A DNA stretch of 64,000 bases. Origin: Microcella alkaliphila (GTDB taxonomy: Bacteria; Actinomycetota; Actinomycetes; Actinomycetales; Microbacteriaceae). Both the position numbers and the translations under genes were made by a program. The notes below the pieces were generated by a model. It was not told the DNA's origin and made no database searches. It was given only the letters and a program-made list of their open reading frames with translations. Below are positions 12,261 through 49,931 of the stretch, piece by piece (the first letter of the stretch is position 1; every line of letters begins with the position of its first letter). Location of the stretch: assembly GCF_004216855.1 (NCBI RefSeq), contig NZ_SGXT01000011.1, forward strand, positions 1-64,000. Direction: 5' to 3'.

Positions 12261-12281
12261 GATGGAGGTCGTGCCTCCATC
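12261..12281 (-). promoter_or_regulatory. Leader hairpin that competes with the ribosome-binding site
   Basis: In the mRNA of the gene at 11640-12239, GATGGAGG and CCTCCATC form an 8-bp stem with a 5-base loop about 22 bases before the ATG. The descending arm GACCTCC can instead pair with the ribosome-binding region GGAGGTT just downstream. The two pairings exclude each other, which could switch translation. The remaining gene-free stretch 12282-12550 shows no gene or clear site. Confidence 0.35.
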
Positions 12282-12550
12282 GACGTGACCGGCCCGGGCG
12301 GGTCGGTCGGTTCTTCCCCTGGGGCACCCCGGTCGATGGACGGGGTTGCCGGGCAGCCGGCCAGGTACCGACAGCTGCCACTCGTGAACCAACAACGAGC
12401 CTTGCAGAGACCGCCGACATTCGCAGCGCTGGCGACGTCTGCTCTTCACAGGGCGATCCATCCCGGCGCGCTCACGGTTCTCGGCCTTGGGCCCGCCTAG
12501 CGTCTGGGCGATTGCGTCACTGTGGGGGCATGGTCGAGCCACATCGCAGA

Positions 12551-32598: not shown

Positions 32599-32729
32599 GC
32601 GTCCCGCCCAAGCATTCAGAGATTCGGGATGCTCGCGTTGCGTCGACACGCCATCCGAGCATCCCGAAGCGTCATGGGGAGCCTGTGGCTGGCAGGGGCG
32701 ACTCTCGCCGATGCGGCAGACTCGACCGG

Positions 32730-35402
32730 GTGAGCCTGATCGAGTCGATGCCGAAGCCCTACGAGGCGGGCGCGGCCTTCGACGCGATCGCGAACTGGGC
32801 GGCCGACACGGGCAGGCCGCTCTACCCCGCGCAGGAGGAGGCGATCTTCGAACTCGTCGCCGGAGCGCACGTGGTGCTCGCGACCCCGACCGGCAGCGGC
32901 AAGAGCCTCGTCGCCGTCGCTGCCCACGCGATCGCGCTCGCCCAGGGGCGCCGCAGCTACTACACGGCACCGATCAAGGCGCTCGTGAGCGAGAAGTTCT
33001 TTCAGCTGGTCGACATCTTCGGCGCGGAGAACGTTGGAATGGTCACCGGCGACAGCGCCGTCAACGGCGACGCTCCGATCATCTGCTGCACGGCCGAGAT
33101 CCTCGCCAACCAGGCGTTGCGGTCGGGCAACGCGCTGGACGTGGGCCACGTCGTCATGGATGAGTTCCACTACTACGCCGATCCGGAGCGCGGATGGGCG
33201 TGGCAGGTGCCGCTGCTCGAACTGACCGGCACGCGATTTGTGCTGATGAGCGCGACGCTCGGCGACGTGAGCGCGATCGCGAGCGACCTCGAGAGGCGCA
33301 CCGGGCATCCCGTCAGCGAGGTCACGCACACCGAGCGGCCGATCCCGCTGTCGTACGAGTACGTGCGCACGCCTGTGCACGAAACGGTGGAAGAACTGCT
33401 CGAGGAGCGACGCGCTCCCGTCTATGTCGTGCACTTCAGTCAGGCCGCGGCGATGGAACGCGCCCAGGCGCTGTCGAGCATCCGCGTCATCAGTCGCGAA
33501 CAGCGGGACGAGATCGCCCGCGAGCTGGGGGAGTTCCGCTTCACCACCGGTTTCGGGCAGACCCTCAGCCGCCTCGTGCGCGCAGGCATCGGCGTACACC
33601 ACGCCGGCATGCTGCCGAAGTACCGACGGCTCGTGGAGGTGCTCGCCCAGAAGGGGCTGCTGAAGGTCATTTGCGGCACCGACACGCTCGGCGTCGGCAT
33701 CAACGTGCCCATTCGCACGGTTCTGCTGACGGCGCTCAGCAAGTACGACGGGGAGAAGACCCGCCACCTCACTGCGCGCGAGTTTCACCAGATCGCGGGG
33801 CGGGCGGGCCGTGCCGGCTTCGACAATGAAGGTTTCGTCGTCGTGCAGGCTCCCGAGCACGACGTCGAGAACGCGCAGGCCCAGGCGAAGGCACAGAAGG
33901 CCGGGGCGAGCGGCAAAAAGGTGAAGAAGTCGCCCAAAAAGTCGGCACCCGCCGGCAGCGTCGTGTGGACAGAGAAGACATTCGAGCGCCTCGTCGCCGC
34001 ACCGCCCGAGCCGCTCGAGAGCCGCATGCAGGTGTCAGCGGCGATGCTGATCAACCTGATCGCGCGCGGGGGAGACGTCGTTGCCCACGCCCGCGCGCTG
34101 CTCACCGAGAACCACGAACCGCCGCACCGCCAGCGCGAGCTCGTGCGTCGCGCGCTCGGCATCGCCAAGACCCTCGTCACTGCCGGCGTCGTCGAGATCG
34201 TGCGCCCGCCCAACTCTCGTGTCAACAACTCAGGACTAACGGCCGAGGATGGTGCTGATGAGCCCCGGACGGCCGGGTCGCTACGCGGTAGTCCTGAGTT
34301 GTTGACACCCGAGGTGCGGCTGACCGTCGATCTGCAGCCGAATTTTGCCCTCAACCAGCCCCTCAGCCCGTTCGCCCTGTCGGTGATCGGGATGCTCGAC
34401 CCGGCAGACACCGTCGGCTTCCGGCGCGACGACACGGGCTCGGCGAACGGCCTGCTCGGCACGGGTCACTACGCGCTCGACGTGGTGAGCGTCATGGAGG
34501 CGACGCTCGACAACCCGCGCGCCGTGGTTGCCCAGCAGCAGTTCCGCGCCCGAGGCGAGGCTGTCGCCCAGATGAAGGCCGACGGTATCGAGTACGACGA
34601 GCGGATGGAGCGGCTCGAGACCGTCACACACCCGCAGCCGCTCGCCGAGCTCCTCGAGGAGGCGTTCGAGGGCTTCGCAGCCGCCCAGCCGTGGATTCGC
34701 GATGTTGAGCTCAAGCCGAAAAGCGTCGTGCGTGACATGTTCGAGCGCGCGATGACGTTCGGTGAGTACGTCAGCTTCTACCAACTGCAGCGCAGCGAGG
34801 GCGGGCTGCTTCGCTACCTGAGCGACGCTGACCGGGCCTTGCGCCAGACGGTGCCGCCGGAGGCGATGACCGACGAGCTAACCGACATCGTCGAGTGGCT
34901 GCGCGAGCTCGTGCGCCAGGTCGACTCGAGCCTGCAAGACGAGTGGGAGGCGCTGACGCAGGCGGCCCACGCGGCAACGCCCTCCGCGCCGAGCGACACG
35001 CCCGTGACGCCGCCGCCCCCGCCCGACGTCACCACGAACCGCCGGGCCTTCACCGTGCTCGTACGCAACGAGCTGTTCCGCCGCGTGCAGCTGGCCGCGC
35101 GCGAGGCGGATGACGAGCTCGTCGCACTTGACCCCGACGCCGCCTGGCCCGAGGCGCTCGACGCCTACTTCGCCGAGCACGACGACATCGGCATCGACGC
35201 TGCCGCGCGGGCGACGGCGCTCGTGCACATCGATGAGAACCCCGCGGATGCTCGCCCCGGCGAACGCGTCTGGCGCGTTCGTCAGGTGCTCGCCGACCCG
35301 GCGGGCCACCACGACTGGGGCATCGACGCGGTCGTCGACCTCGACGCGAGTGCCGAGGAGGGCGTCGCCGTCGTGCGTGTACTCGGGCTCAGTCGCCTGT
35401 AG
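32730..35402 (+). CDS. SKI2/Mtr4-like superfamily II helicase with DUF3516, carrying an in-frame 90-bp repeat
   Basis: This protein of about 890 residues has Walker A ATPTGSGKS near 49-57, the DEFH box VVMDEFHYYADP, motif III SATLGD, and motif VI HQIAGRAGRAGF near 354-365. A basic stretch (KKVKKSPKKS) follows near 410. The C-terminal half is the DUF3516 region with FALNQPLSPFALSVIGMLDP and VVRDMFERAMTFGEYVSFY. Members resemble RNA/DNA-unwinding Mtr4 and Ski2 proteins. Between EIVRPPN and VRLTVDL, residues about 497-527 (RVNNSGLTAEDG ... SPELLTPE) are encoded by a palindromic 90-bp element. The start is a GTG at 32730, where homologues begin MSLIE; a GTG at 32685 and an ATG at 32748 are alternatives. 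Confidence 0.87.
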   Translation: MSLIESMPKPYEAGAAFDAIANWAADTGRPLYPAQEEAIFELVAGAHVVLATPTGSGKSLVAVAAHAIALAQGRRSYYTAPIKALVSEKFFQLVDIFGAENVGMVTGDSAVNGDAPIICCTAEILANQALRSGNALDVGHVVMDEFHYYADPERGWAWQVPLLELTGTRFVLMSATLGDVSAIASDLERRTGHPVSEVTHTERPIPLSYEYVRTPVHETVEELLEERRAPVYVVHFSQAAAMERAQALSSIRVISREQRDEIARELGEFRFTTGFGQTLSRLVRAGIGVHHAGMLPKYRRLVEVLAQKGLLKVICGTDTLGVGINVPIRTVLLTALSKYDGEKTRHLTAREFHQIAGRAGRAGFDNEGFVVVQAPEHDVENAQAQAKAQKAGASGKKVKKSPKKSAPAGSVVWTEKTFERLVAAPPEPLESRMQVSAAMLINLIARGGDVVAHARALLTENHEPPHRQRELVRRALGIAKTLVTAGVVEIVRPPNSRVNNSGLTAEDGADEPRTAGSLRGSPELLTPEVRLTVDLQPNFALNQPLSPFALSVIGMLDPADTVGFRRDDTGSANGLLGTGHYALDVVSVMEATLDNPRAVVAQQQFRARGEAVAQMKADGIEYDERMERLETVTHPQPLAELLEEAFEGFAAAQPWIRDVELKPKSVVRDMFERAMTFGEYVSFYQLQRSEGGLLRYLSDADRALRQTVPPEAMTDELTDIVEWLRELVRQVDSSLQDEWEALTQAAHAATPSAPSDTPVTPPPPPDVTTNRRAFTVLVRNELFRRVQLAAREADDELVALDPDAAWPEALDAYFAEHDDIGIDAAARATALVHIDENPADARPGERVWRVRQVLADPAGHHDWGIDAVVDLDASAEEGVAVVRVLGLSRL
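34219..34308. repeat. 90-bp palindromic element inserted in frame in the helicase gene
   Basis: A perfect 20-bp inverted repeat, GTGTCAACAACTCAGGACTA at 34219-34238 and its reverse complement at 34289-34308, brackets a 50-bp spacer. The total of 90 bp is exactly 30 codons. The one open frame avoids the TAA, TAG and TGA triplets present in the arms. The same 20-mer occurs six times at 49046-49357, where the inner pair has the same 50-bp spacing. Confidence 0.9.
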
Positions 35403-45557: not shown

Positions 45558-47878
45558 TGCGAGTCCTCGATGCTCGGCTGGCCATTCCTGCCGGGGTCGC
45601 GTGGGTCGGGGCGCTCGTGCTCATCGGGGTGAGCCGAGACGTCGTCGTGCCGGTCGCCTGGAGCGTCGCCACCGCGGCGATCGCGCTGTCGCTCGCAACT
45701 TGGTGGTCCCTCCGGCGGACCCGTTCCGCCGTCCCGTCCCTGCTCGCGCTCGCCCTGATCGCCGGGGCAGTGGGGCTCGCGGCACCGGCGCGAACGCCCC
45801 CGGCGCTCACCGACGCGCTGGACGGTGCGCCGACTGAGCTCGTCGTGCAGTTGGAATTGACGGCGACACCCGAGACGACGACGGTGCCCGCGCGAATCGT
45901 CGGCGTCGTGCAGTCCGAGGGTGCGGTCGCCCGCGTCTCGGTGCCGGTGCGGCTGTTGTCGATCGACGTCGATCGCCGCACGCCGCTCGGCACAACGCTC
46001 GTCGGAACCGGCCGACTGATCCCCGTGGGAGCGGGCGACGGACGCGTCGCCCTCGTCCGCGTTATCGGCGCGTGGACTCCCACCCGCGACCCGCCGCCAC
46101 TGCTTGCCGCGGGCGATGCGCTGCGCGAGCGTTTCCTCGCCCTGATGGAACAGTTCGGCGGCGACGGCGCCGTTCTTCTGCCCGGCCTCGCCATTGGCGA
46201 CACCTCGGAGGTGCCCGACGACCTCGACCTCGCCATGAAGCAGAGCGCCCTCAGCCACCTGACGGCGGTCAGCGGAGCCAACTGCGCGATCGTCGTCGGC
46301 CTCATTCTCGGGCTCGGAGGCATCCTGCGCTGGCCCCGCTGGGTACGCATCACGATCGCGCTGGCCGCGCTCGGCTTCTTCGTGGTTCTCGTGACGCCCG
46401 AGCCGAGCGTCATTCGTGCGGCGATCATGGCGACCGCCGTGCTGCTCGCGACACAGGTGGGAAGGCCCGTGCACGGCCTGCCCGTGCTCGCGCTCGCCGT
46501 GATCGGCATCATCGTGCTCGACCCGTGGATCGCGCGGCAGTACGGCTTCGTGCTGTCAGTGCTCGCCACCGCGGCTCTTCTTGTGCTGGCTGGCCCCATC
46601 GCCGACCGGCTGTCGGCAATCATGCCGCCCGCGATGGCTCTCTGGGTTGCGGTGCCTCTGGCGGCCCAGCTCGCGTGCCAACCCGTGCTCATCCTGCTGC
46701 AGCCCGAGGTGCCGGTGTGGGGTGTCGTCGCGAACATCCTGGCCGCGCCCGCCGCGCCCGTGGCGACGGTCGTCGGGATGATTGCCTGCGTGCTGGCCCC
46801 GGGCATCCCGTGGGTGGCGACGGTTGTTGCGGCGATCGCGTGGGTGCCGTCGGCGTGGATTGCGGGCGTCGCGCGCGTGAGCGCGGGCATGCCGGGGGCG
46901 CTCGTGCCCTGGCCCGAGGGCGCGCTCGGCGCGACACTGCTGGCCGTGCTGACCGGGCTGGTACTCATCGCGTGGCGAGTGCCCGTGGCGCTCGGCTCGC
47001 AGCGCTTTCGCCGACGACTCGTTGCGGCAGGGCTCGTCGCGGCGGTCATCACGCTCGGGGTGACGGCGGGGCGCGACGCGCTGACCCGGATCGCCGTTCC
47101 TACCGACTGGGTGATCGCCCAGTGCGACGTCGGGCAGGGTGACGCTGTGCTCGTTCGTGATGGTCCGCTGACGGTGCTGATCGACACCGGCCCGACCGCC
47201 GAGGCGCTCGGGGAATGCCTCGACGTGCTGCGGGTCGACCAGGTCGACGTGTTTCTCATCAGCCATTTCGACCTCGACCATGTGGGCGGAGTCGAGGCGA
47301 TCCTCGGACGGGTCGCTGCCGTCTGGACGGGGCCCGTCGGTCGCGACGCTGACCAAGCGGTACTGGATGCTCTCATCGCCTCGGGTGCGGAGGTCCACGA
47401 CGTGCGCCAGGGCGACGTCCTGCAGCCCGCCGACGCGCGCTGGGAGGTGTTGTGGCCGCCCGACCACCGGGGCGTGGCGCCCGGAAACGACGCGAGCGTC
47501 GTCGTCGACGTGCGGTTCGGTGCCGGGTGTCCGCAGTGTCCCAGCCTCCTGGCCCTGGGGGACCTCGGCGAGTCGGTGCAGCGCACCATGATGGCGACGG
47601 CCGACGTGCGGCCCGTCGACGTGGTGAAAGTGAGCCACCACGGGTCGCCCGACCAGTTCGACGAAGTGTACGCGCGCGCTGGCGCTGCGGTGGGCCTCAT
47701 CGGAGTGGGGGCCGACAATTCCTACGGGCATCCGGCCGCGTCGGTCATCGACGCGGTGGTGAACGCCGGCGGTACGGTGAGCCGATCCGACCTGCACGGA
47801 CTCGTTCTCGTCGGCGCCGACGAGGACGGCCTGTGGGTGTGGCACGAGCGGCCCGGAGGTGTCGCAGCCGATCAGTAG
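45557..47878 (+). CDS. comEC: ComEC/Rec2-type DNA-uptake channel
   Basis: The 773-residue polytopic protein has about ten hydrophobic helices. The competence domain contains SHLTAVSGANCAIVVGLILG near 234-253. The C-terminal metallo-beta-lactamase-like nuclease domain has CDVGQGDAVLVRDG, LISHFDLDHVGGVEAILG near 572-589, and VVKVSHHGSPDQF. It translocates single-stranded DNA and probably degrades the other strand. Length and motifs are complete, so natural transformation machinery may be functional, although no comG-like genes are in view. Confidence 0.93.
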   Translation: MRVLDARLAIPAGVAWVGALVLIGVSRDVVVPVAWSVATAAIALSLATWWSLRRTRSAVPSLLALALIAGAVGLAAPARTPPALTDALDGAPTELVVQLELTATPETTTVPARIVGVVQSEGAVARVSVPVRLLSIDVDRRTPLGTTLVGTGRLIPVGAGDGRVALVRVIGAWTPTRDPPPLLAAGDALRERFLALMEQFGGDGAVLLPGLAIGDTSEVPDDLDLAMKQSALSHLTAVSGANCAIVVGLILGLGGILRWPRWVRITIALAALGFFVVLVTPEPSVIRAAIMATAVLLATQVGRPVHGLPVLALAVIGIIVLDPWIARQYGFVLSVLATAALLVLAGPIADRLSAIMPPAMALWVAVPLAAQLACQPVLILLQPEVPVWGVVANILAAPAAPVATVVGMIACVLAPGIPWVATVVAAIAWVPSAWIAGVARVSAGMPGALVPWPEGALGATLLAVLTGLVLIAWRVPVALGSQRFRRRLVAAGLVAAVITLGVTAGRDALTRIAVPTDWVIAQCDVGQGDAVLVRDGPLTVLIDTGPTAEALGECLDVLRVDQVDVFLISHFDLDHVGGVEAILGRVAAVWTGPVGRDADQAVLDALIASGAEVHDVRQGDVLQPADARWEVLWPPDHRGVAPGNDASVVVDVRFGAGCPQCPSLLALGDLGESVQRTMMATADVRPVDVVKVSHHGSPDQFDEVYARAGAAVGLIGVGADNSYGHPAASVIDAVVNAGGTVSRSDLHGLVLVGADEDGLWVWHERPGGVAADQ

Positions 47879-47898
47879 GCTGGCGGGGGAGGACATCG

Positions 47899-48942
47899 AT
47901 GGCACGAGCGAAGGCACCCGCGCGCGGGGGGTCGGGGCGGTCTGCCGCCGCGCGCATCCCGCAGCTGGCGTGGCACGAGGTTCGCCCCGCGCCGATCGTG
48001 CTCATCAGCGGTACCGAAGGGTTCCTCGCCGACCGAGCCCTGCGCATCCTGCGCGACGCGTTGCGCACAGAAGACCCGGCCCTTGAGGTGCACGACGTCG
48101 ACGCTGCGGCCTATGCGCCCGGCGAACTGTTGACGCTCGCAAGCCCGTCGCTGTTCGGCGAACCGCGCCTCTTGCGCGTCACGAACGTCGAGAAGATGAC
48201 GGACGCCTTCCTCGAGGAGGCGCTGGCGTTTCTGGAAGAGCCTGCCGACGGTGCGGTCGTCGCGTTGCGTCACGCCGGAGGAGTGCGCGGCAAGAAGCTG
48301 CTCGACGCGATTCGCGCGGGCACCGGCGACGGCGTGGAGGTGGTGTGTGCCGAACTCAAGCGCGAGTCTGACCGTGCCGACTTCGCCGCGGCCGAGTTCC
48401 GGCACGCGGGTCGCGCCATCGCCCCCGTCGCATTGCGTGCGCTCGTCGCCGCCTTCGCCGACGACCTCGGCGAGTTGGGGGCCGCCTGCCAGCAGCTGAT
48501 CGCCGACACCGAGGGTGACATTTCTGCCGACATCGTGCAGCGGTACTACGGCGGGCGGGTCGAAGCGACCGCGTTCGCCGTCGCCGACGCCGCCATCGCC
48601 GGCCAGCTCGGGCAGGCACTCTCGCTGCTGCGGCACGCGCTCGACACCGGCGCCGACCCCGTGCCGATGGTTGCCGCGTTCGCGATGAAGCTGCGCACCA
48701 TGGCGAAGGTCGGCGGAACCCGCGGCTCGGGCGGCCAGATCGCCTCGCAGTTAGGGCTCGCGCCGTGGCAGGTCGACCGCGCGCGGCGCGACCTCCAAGG
48801 GTGGGACGAGGTGGGACTCGGCCGCGCCATCCTGACGGTCGCCGAGACCGACGCCGCCGTGAAGGGCGCAAGCCGCGACCCGGTCTTCGCCCTCGAGCGC
48901 CTCGTCACCCTCATCGCCGACCGGGGCCACCCCCGCGGCTGA
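47899..48942 (+). CDS. holA: DNA polymerase III delta subunit
   Basis: The 347-residue protein follows comEC, as in many bacteria. IVLISGTEGFLADRALRILRDAL begins the first AAA+-like domain (about 33-55), with DVDAAAYAPGELLTLASPSLF shortly after; FADDLGELGAACQQLIADTEG marks the middle domain and MKLRTMAKVGGTRGSGGQI the C-terminal collar domain. It opens the sliding clamp as part of the clamp loader. The ATG at 47899 has GGGGGAGG about 6 bases upstream. Frames extending further 5' overlap comEC and are not used. Confidence 0.92.
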   Translation: MARAKAPARGGSGRSAAARIPQLAWHEVRPAPIVLISGTEGFLADRALRILRDALRTEDPALEVHDVDAAAYAPGELLTLASPSLFGEPRLLRVTNVEKMTDAFLEEALAFLEEPADGAVVALRHAGGVRGKKLLDAIRAGTGDGVEVVCAELKRESDRADFAAAEFRHAGRAIAPVALRALVAAFADDLGELGAACQQLIADTEGDISADIVQRYYGGRVEATAFAVADAAIAGQLGQALSLLRHALDTGADPVPMVAAFAMKLRTMAKVGGTRGSGGQIASQLGLAPWQVDRARRDLQGWDEVGLGRAILTVAETDAAVKGASRDPVFALERLVTLIADRGHPRG

Positions 48943-49045
48943 CCCCCGCTTCGCGCGCTTCCCGCACCGACTGGGGACACCCCGCGCTCGACCCCTCGCC
49001 GACGCGCGCGCCCTCGACGCCTGTCCAACCCCTATGCGCGCCCTG

Positions 49046-49357
49046 GTGTCAACAATTCAGGACCAACGCGCGAACCCGCTGCCTCCGCCCGCCCCCGCGC
49101 GTGTCAACAACTCAGGACTAACGCGTGCAGCTCTTGCGCTCACCCCGGCAACCCTCGTGTCAACAACTCAGGACTAGCGGGTCCGTTCCTGCCGAGGTAG
49201 CGGGATACAGACCCGCAGAACCTCGCTAGTCCTGAGTTGTTGACGCTGCCGCGTCGGGCGGTCCTGCGGCGCGCGCAGCGCTAGTCCTGAGTTGTTGAAA
49301 CCGCGGGTGGGGGAGCCTGCGGGGCGCCGGCCGCCGTTAGTCCTGAGTTGTTGACAC
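49046..49357. repeat. Mirror-symmetric array of six 20-bp repeats
   Basis: Three copies of GTGTCAACAACTCAGGACTA run forward (49046, 49101, 49157), then three run reversed (starting 49227, 49282, 49338). The start-to-start spacings are 55, 56, 70, 55 and 56 bp, so the array is symmetric about 49,202. Copies 2, 3 and 6 are perfect; copy 1 has two changes, copies 4 and 5 one or two at one edge. The 35-36-bp gaps and the 50-bp centre are unrelated in sequence. No gene is present in 48943-49530. Confidence 0.9.
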
Positions 49358-49389
49358 GCGCGGGCGCGTCGGGGCAGCACTCCGCCGTA

Positions 49390-49461
49390 CACACAGCGCC
49401 GTGCCCCGCACACAGCGCCGTGCCCCGCACACAGCGCCGTGCCCCGCACACGGCGACGCCC
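49390..49461. repeat. 19-bp tandem repeat
   Basis: CACACAGCGCCGTGCCCCG is repeated three times without change (49390-49446) and continues as a degenerate partial copy. It lies between the mirrored array and the rpsT terminator. Confidence 0.85.
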
Positions 49462-49476
49462 CCCCCGAACACAGCG

Positions 49477-49509
49477 AAGCGCCCCGGGGCGGTAAGCCCC
49501 GGGGCGCTT
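49477..49509 (-). terminator. rpsT terminator hairpin
   Basis: A perfect 14-bp stem AAGCGCCCCGGGGC / GCCCCGGGGCGCTT closes a 5-base loop 22 bp beyond the rpsT stop. A T-run is missing, but the stem is very stable. Confidence 0.8.
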
Positions 49510-49530
49510 CAGCGTGCGTGTGGGTACGAC

Positions 49531-49791
49531 CTAGAGGGCCGCGACCTGCTTCGCGATGGCCGACTTGCGGTTTGCGGCCTGGTTCTGGTGGATGACGCCC
49601 TTGCTGACCGCCTTGTCGAGCTTCTTCGACGCGACCTTGAGCGCGGCGGTCGCCGCCTCCTTGTCGCCCGCCGCGATCGCCTTGCGCGTGCTGCGCACGG
49701 CGGTCTTGAGCTCGCTCTTGACGGCCTTGTTGCGTTCCTGGGCCTTCAGGTTGGTCTTGATGCGCTTGATCTGCGACTTGATGTTCGCCAT
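49531..49791 (-). CDS. rpsT: 30S ribosomal protein S20
   Basis: The 86-residue protein matches S20: [20 protein letters not shown], then [19 protein letters not shown], and [20 protein letters not shown] at the C-terminus. It is highly basic and binds 16S rRNA early in assembly. The ATG at 49789-49791 gives the standard N-terminus; the frame continues upstream but is not used. In most relatives I recall, rpsT lies next to lepA; here 4 kb separates them. Confidence 0.97.
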
Positions 49792-49931
49792 GACTGTCTT
49801 TCTTCGAGTGTGTACGGGATGAGCAACCGGTCGTGGGGTGTGCCTGACGGCGAACTGAGCCCGGTCGCGTTCCGTGCCGGAAGAGAGAGGGCTTCCTGGC
49901 ACGCAAGCCAATCCAGAATCCTAGCAGGGCT

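Follow-up and report, generated by a model that had tools for sequence, protein, structure and literature searches.

What is the mirrored array of short repeats between holA and rpsT in Microcella alkaliphila, and what holds its copies in register? To address this question, we analysed a window of 64,000 nucleotides (the whole stretch of DNA under study, here called the window) and followed the repeat into related genomes. A motif scan with the 16-mer STCNACAAYTCAGGAS reproduced exactly the six-copy mirrored array with start-to-start steps of 55, 56, 70, 55 and 56 bp that the initial annotation had described, in the orientation +++--- (Table 1). The arms are 16–18 bp long and non-identical; compared with GTCAACAACTCAGGACTA, the copy at 49048 differs at two positions and the copy at 49284 at one. 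Taken as 16-mers the arms leave gaps of 39, 40, 54, 39 and 40 bp, and as 20-mers gaps of 35, 36, 50, 35 and 36 bp. The four outer gaps are dissimilar, with 12–20 matching positions per 39–40 in the pairings tested, which bears out the earlier view that gap lengths are conserved and gap sequences differ. Two further parts of that description also hold: the inner pair has the same 70-bp geometry as an element within a helicase gene, and the array lies between two convergent genes, as the ORF ends and strands of holA and rpsT confirm. The window contains eight matches at up to three mismatches, compared with 0.01 expected in shuffles. A 19-bp unit (CAGCGCCGTGCCCCGCACA), repeated in tandem approximately four times, adjoins the array at 49375-49450. 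A tRNA scan of the 64-kb window returned none, and the sole Rfam match in it was a SAM-IV riboswitch elsewhere, at 12278-12389 (- strand, 69.8 bits).

Table 1. Features of the array and of the helicase element (window coordinates)
Feature	Position	Strand	Basis
Arm 1 (GTCAACAATTCAGGAC)	49048..49063	+	motif scan
Arm 2 (GTCAACAACTCAGGAC)	49103..49118	+	motif scan
Arm 3, inner pair, left	49159..49174	+	motif scan
Inner-pair spacer, 54 bp, without CGACACGCCG block	49175..49228	.	block in 0/13 elements of the window's genome (G000)
Arm 4, inner pair, right; 70 bp from arm 3	49229..49244	-	motif scan
Arm 5 (TTCAACAACTCAGGAC, one mismatch)	49284..49299	-	motif scan
Arm 6	49340..49355	-	motif scan
holA ORF (DNA polymerase III delta, C-terminal domain PF21694; putative start)	47452..48942	+	domain match
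rpsT ORF (ribosomal protein S20)	49531..49911	-	gene match
Helicase element, left arm; read in frame as VNNSGL	34221..34236	+	motif scan, translation
Helicase element, right arm, 70 bp from left	34291..34306	-	motif scan
Helicase gene (Pfam DUF3516/DEAD) carrying the in-frame element	32685..35402	+	Pfam

Analysis of the window's genome (G000; 2.69 Mb in 20 contigs) revealed 40 sites matching TCAACAACTCAGGACTA with up to two mismatches, 20 on each strand, and none matching the reversed control. Thirty-eight of the 40 lie within 90 kb (C1:34222-124458) and two on another contig, and 20 of 39 sites are packed into 14.5 kb, from just after leuA to just after a DsbA-like gene (named by reading its protein sequence). 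Sites of the form STCNACAAYTCAGGAS with up to one mismatch are carried by 24 of 26 Microcella genomes, seven of the 26 being below 90% complete, at 11–56 sites per genome compared with 0–1 for the reversed control; the two site-poor genomes are G006 with one site and G008 with none. Among named records, the arm matches M. putealis, M. alkalica and Yonghaparkia sp. Root332. In the wider family, exact matches were found in 14 of 299 genomes, six of which are Microcella (13–44 sites) and the other eight of which hold 1–4 sites. Exact single-arm matches occur in 20 and 8 viral contigs, and the inverted pair in none of them. The species differ in arm type, with GTCAACAACTCAGGAC in G000, G013 and G014, GTCGACAACTCAGGAC in G019, GTCGACAACTCAGGAG in G009 and G018, and CTCCACAAYTCAGGAG (the CTCC type) in G001, G004, G005, G007, G010, G012, G016 and G020.

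Mapping of the sites in 12 genomes (up to one mismatch) showed that most or all of them lie in the orthologous region: 38/41 in 90 kb in G000, 37/38 in 85 kb in G014, 35/36 in 69 kb in G019, 31/32 in 75 kb in G023, 27/27 in 99 kb in G021, 26/32 in 91 kb in G012, 37/56 in 114 kb in G004 (19/56 outside the region), 24/33 in 60 kb in G016 (28/33 if the contig is circular), 30/30 in 100 kb in G002, 31/32 in 100 kb in G013, 17/17 in 80 kb in G009 and 18/18 in 100 kb in G018. In G016:C1, rpsT is found near both contig ends (14004 and 2652170), probably reflecting an untrimmed circular overlap. The core genes common to the region in nine genomes, including the site-free G008, are leuA, nadA, nadB, nadC, a nifS-like gene, recO, uppS, glyS, lepA and rpsT, and no other repeat was found in 120 kb of G008. 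Besides the cluster, the CTCC-type genomes G004, G012 and G016 carry scattered pairs, and the sites of the fragmented CTCC-type draft G001 lie on several contigs among the matches listed. At two of nine outlier loci in G004, transposase-like ORFs that share a segment (L117:4720-6471 and L119:4679-6235, both on the - strand, read from protein) are found near scattered inverted pairs, at distances of approximately 710 and 220 bp.

Kindred elements were observed in the genus g72, where the arms GTYCNCAAYTCAGGAS stand 70–71 bp apart and are mostly intergenic. The two g72 genomes searched carry 24 and 73 arms, spread over several contigs, and many of the elements contain inverted CGGCGTGTCG/CGACACGCCG-like blocks, often as two copies beside the arms (by eye). 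A different arrangement was seen in G338, of another genus, in which six arms in the same direction and one reversed arm (two mismatches) lie within approximately 1 kb (L141 5456-6416), upstream of a LigA-like gene (read from protein) and in longer repeated surroundings, unlike the usual inverted pairs.

Comparison of the elements revealed a rule of orientation and spacing. Within one unit, the arms face inward. In the sets scanned, the site groups were +- (116), ++- (7), +-- (7), ++-- (6), +-+- (4), +++--- (2), +++- (2), +-+-- (2) and ++ (2), with four other forms seen one time each, besides 46 solitary sites; three G021 groups are counted twice here and were removed for the neighbour-distance counts. 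For inverted neighbours within 150 bp, 152 of 154 distances fall in 70–71, 80–83, 92–94 or 103–104 bp, and for tandem neighbours 45 of 48 fall in 33–36, 44–46, 54–57 or 67 bp, many of these distances being from orthologous and hence non-independent elements, and the windows having been set after viewing the data. Divergent neighbours, which belong to different elements, gave nine distances with no phase. The best period (computed with the G021 duplicates) is 11.16 bp for inverted and 10.59 bp for tandem neighbours. With the middle of the invariant ACAAYTCAGGA as reference point, inverted arms are approximately 67.5, 78.5, 89.5 and 100.5 bp apart, corresponding to 6, 7, 8 and 9 turns of 11.2 bp, and tandem arms stand at 3, 4 and 5 turns. 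Among 15 orthologous elements, 58 comparisons against the shortest form gave differences of 0–2 bp (36), 11–12 bp (21) and 34 bp (1). The period of inverted neighbours matches the in vivo value of 11.08–11.60 bp per helical turn that was fitted to LacR looping data, as given in passages of PMC1762422. The genus-wide steps of approximately 11 bp support the suggestion of the initial annotation that the geometry spaces protein on one face of the helix. At the array locus itself, the arm patterns across species are +++---, ++--, ++-+- and +-+-, with none in some species, and so the number of arms varies at this place. The irregular spacing and orientation by which the annotation would have put the symmetry down to chance were absent from the relatives.

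The same spacing bears on readings based on nucleic acid structure. Nested hairpins or a large cruciform had been considered for the array, and whole-turn spacing with free sequence points away from both RNA and cruciform. It is also quite improbable that the elements are bidirectional transcription terminators or 3'-end RNA hairpins. Inverted arms would give a strong RNA stem, and several elements do lie between convergent genes, including holA/rpsT, others in the cluster and approximately 8 of 15 scattered loci (by eye), for example between parC and parE (read from proteins) in G012. The predicted RNA fold of the array is indeed strong (z -11), because any inverted repeat gives such a fold. 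Against this reading, no T-run terminator was found in 48800-49700 (0 compared with 0.5 in shuffles, for this array only), and rpsT has a separate, perfect 15-bp hairpin just downstream (49476-49510), perhaps its own terminator. The 23 site-bearing intervals of the cluster comprise 6 within genes, 11 tandem, 4 convergent and 2 divergent, where holA/rpsT is scored as tandem since an antisense ORF replaced holA and one tandem interval holds only a two-mismatch G008 match; the background gaps of G000 longer than 60 bp comprise 20 tandem, 5 convergent and 6 divergent, and the cluster therefore has no strong convergent-gap bias. In addition, the length of an RNA loop need not obey helical turns, the conserved arm letters exceed what pairing needs, arm pairs occur inside the coding sequences of nadB and the nifS-like gene at distances of 208–374 bp, and G008 retains the genes without the elements. 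The idea of a bidirectional terminator raised in the initial annotation thus finds no support.

To characterise how the elements change, we compared arms and spacers between genomes, beginning from the arms found in the first genome of each pair. Arm identity exceeded spacer identity in G000/G014 (98.0 vs 83.3%), in G000/G013 (91.5 vs 58.7%) and in G012/G004 (96.5 vs 66.3%; 13 of 14 arrays aligned). In the G012/G004 spacers, 8 positions are gapped vs 759 aligned. The G000/G013 spacers at 95722 and 97795 keep their length at identities as low as 44%; in this pair, 84 arm and 245 spacer positions are gapped, mostly where the arm number differs or the element is missing. Spacer sequence drifts, and spacer length is mostly kept. 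When carriers were compared with the site-free G008, the recO-uppS interval aligned without gaps, and substitutions in G008 stand in place of both arms and the central block that G012 has there. Across 14 arrays of G012 vs G008, one such case is clearly substitution-only, three are one-sided, and ten are gapped in or beside the element. In the C4 pair, an ungapped alignment sets the left arm of G000 opposite a non-site in G014, and the right arm is ambiguous. These alignments show that some arms appeared or were lost in place by substitution. Other changes involve copying: G014 carries a 45-bp tandem duplication of a whole arm unit (44/45 identical), two loci in G004 share near-identical spacers (50 bp, 98%), as do two in G012 (60 bp, 97%), and the helicase gene of G000/G014 acquired an entire 87-bp element in frame, in place of which G013, G004, G008, G009 and G012 have short linkers. 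The notion of stepwise growth by nested insertion is borne out in part, by arms added outside an inner inverted pair, by the tandem copy and by the helicase gain.

This copying, together with the intergenic position of many elements, would fit a small non-autonomous mobile palindrome of REP/BIME or MITE type, still living or left as relics, that multiplied locally and has no host function. According to passages of PMC2817692, some bacteria likewise have their REPs concentrated less than 200 kb from their rayt gene. We nevertheless consider this origin unlikely as a full account. The linked REP-associated tyrosine transposase that the initial annotation had envisaged was not found, as Y1_Tnp (PF01797) matched in 0 of 26 genomes and in 5 of 14 controls. 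Moreover, spacers are mostly unrelated to one another, arms are gained or lost by substitution at some fixed places, spacer length is retained though the sequence is lost, and length changes between orthologues are of whole turns. The conserved interior of a MITE or transposon end is likewise missing, with spacers unrelated except in a few recent copies and those of CTCC-type genomes sharing mainly a 10-bp block. A mobile origin can explain the copying and not the remaining points, and it is compatible with binding sites if the copies were co-opted.

Elements inside genes provide a further view. Arms lie at orthologous places within nadB in 8/8 carriers compared, within the nifS-like gene in 6/8 and within nadA in 4/8. 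Analysis of the nifS-like gene indicated that six codons align without gaps across all nine genomes; the arm is present in six carriers (one with a mismatch) and absent from G008 and from the carriers G002 and G012. These codons read VDADGV in G008/G012 vs VNNSGL, VDNSG. or VDNAGR in the six carriers. The second nifS-like arm is located in a stretch of variable length. At the orthologous loci compared, coding ones included, the arm types switch in concert between species. The retention of sites inside genes and the concerted switching suggest a trans-acting factor. Another reading takes the arms as operators of a transcription regulator whose regulon chances to lie here, for example in NAD synthesis, as the arms in nadB, nadA and the nifS-like gene might suggest. 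We regard this as highly improbable, as the genes of the region are functionally unrelated (leuA, glyS, rpsT, holA, the helicase gene and others) and divergent gaps are few (2 of 17 intergenic site-bearing intervals).

In some species the elements contain a third block. The spacers of CTCC-type genomes hold CGACACGCCG in either direction, mostly 20–21 bp from one arm and 35–36 bp from the other. The long side measures 47 or 59 bp in two G004 elements of greater length. The block (up to one mismatch) is found in 20/23 elements of G004, 14/15 of G012 and 14/15 of G016, compared with approximately 0.3 and at most 3 in shuffles, and it stands at other offsets in three of these 48 elements (two in G012, one in G016). 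It is absent from G014 (0/12) and G009 (0/6), as from the window's genome, and rare in G013 (2/12), G002 (1/11) and G018 (1/7). A comparison with three shuffles showed no clear core k-mer in GTC-type genomes beyond GC-rich ones. In E. coli BIMEs, an IHF site is located between REPs, and the tripartite elements here recall them.

We also determined where the cluster lies on the chromosome. A search with a dif-like consensus (up to three mismatches) gave a single putative match per genome in 6 of 6. The cluster is 39–129 kb from this putative dif in G000, 70–156 kb in G014 and roughly 240–360 kb in G002, G004, G016 and G021. In the single-contig genomes G004, G014, G016 and G021 (2.6–2.8 Mb), the cluster is approximately 1.09–1.26 Mb from dnaA. 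The variable distance (approximately 39 to 360 kb) makes a dif-centred domain doubtful; the cluster goes with its genes rather than with dif.

Whole-turn spacing with free sequence suggests that a protein grips the double-stranded DNA from one face, and the crowding of approximately 40 arms into 90 kb of ordinary core genes makes a local nucleoprotein role likely; since the crowding is regional, this role would be structural rather than gene-by-gene regulation. We therefore think it probable that the arrays are clusters of binding sites for a predicted sequence-specific double-stranded DNA-binding protein and perhaps organise a chromosomal domain. The sites, their orientation and whole-turn steps, the better conservation of arms than of spacers, the in-place changes, the concerted switching and the crowding are observed, and from them we infer the protein, the loops it would form and what the domain does. 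Two or more protein units would bind facing 16-bp arms and make contact over a short loop or wrap of 6–9 helical turns, so that the whole-turn spacing would be held and the DNA between the arms would be free to change. Further arms could join outside the inner pair in more whole turns. Some 40 arms would then build a local nucleoprotein structure that bridges, loops or compacts a domain of the chromosome, in a matS/MatP- or centromere-like manner.

Several observations weigh against the binding-site reading, namely the variable dif distance, the element gained as a block, the near-copy spacers, the out-of-region sites in CTCC-type genomes and the spread of g72 arms over contigs, as well as the gapped arm and spacer positions of G000/G013, the single clear substitution-only case among the 14 G012 arrays, the two carriers (G002 and G012) without nifS-like arms and the third block missing from G000, G014 and G009. 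Nor did a search of the region return a cognate gene shared by all the carriers examined and lacking in the site-free G008. A P-loop kinase-like gene (read from protein) at C1:83558-84145 of G000 has elements on both sides, and an arm supplies its last codons and stop (STTQD*). As a cognate it was rejected because the regions of the carriers G002, G004 and G012 gave no match; it is found in G000, G013, G014, G009 and G018, and the region of G008 gave no match either. A cognate role for a LacI-type gene next to outlier elements in G004 and in genus g72 was unconvincing.

As a tentative extension of the binding-site reading, the elements may represent an actinobacterial chromosome-domain system unrelated to MatP, in which a predicted protein would sit on phased inverted arms, a second factor would act at the central block in some species, and a structural or segregation domain of 90 kb would result. 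Its specificity would drift between species, taking all sites along, genic ones too, and two site-free species would apparently have lost it. If the proposal is true, Actinobacteria gain a directly testable regional system of chromosome-organising sites that are known to the base, with a rule predicting that half turns fail and whole turns are tolerated. Sister species with and without sites would permit a search for the protein, evolution itself would measure the in vivo helical repeat, and the family would offer a clear example of many sites changing sequence together. Among the matches listed, the open-access literature did not describe repeats of this kind from Microcella or Microbacteriaceae, and searching it with four 11-mer core strings gave none relevant by title.

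Comparison with known systems places the elements closest in form to several families of short sites. REP/BIME elements, as described in passages of PMC2817692 and PMC3733652, are similarly short inverted units with regular spacing, often downstream of genes, proposed as host-protein sites and sometimes intragenic. The inverted, largely extragenic layout is shared, with 17 of 23 site-bearing intervals being intergenic, and a C or T frequently precedes GTC (CGTC/TGTC-like). The elements here differ from REP/BIME in having no Y1 transposase, no REP-type hairpin per unit, far fewer copies and a largely region-bound distribution, and in having whole-turn spacing, free spacer sequence and some arms arisen by substitution. 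By eye, the 16-bp arms have at most 3–4 complementary end positions and no 8–9-bp stem, and so lack the REP hairpin tagged GTAG or CGTC at one end; a hairpin within the arm was rejected, the ends being non-complementary in G009/G018 (GTCG..GGAG). The matS sites, 13 bp in length, number 23 in the 800-kb Ter macrodomain of E. coli (PMC3330122). Like matS/MatP, the present system places tens of short sites in one chromosomal region, which here may lie on the terminus side, and it differs in sequence, in its phased inverted pairs, in its extent of approximately 90 kb, in its variable dif distance and in the lack of a MatP homologue (PF06303 matched in 0 of 26 genomes, with a control match only in E. 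coli, 1 of 14). LacR forms loops of 6–8 turns in E. coli (passages of PMC5081198), and LacR-type loops resemble the present elements in being short and in their in vivo helical step of approximately 11 bp (passages of PMC1762422). Those loops serve single promoters, whereas dozens of elements extend over 90 kb here. P1-type parS consists of inverted ParB boxes flanking a central IHF bend within approximately 80 bp, in a phase-dependent manner. Inverted boxes to either side of a central block are common to both, and the present elements differ in being chromosomal and many. To our knowledge, no described system combines confinement to one region with helical quantisation and concerted drift; families of short inverted protein-binding or repeat sites are themselves an already known kind.
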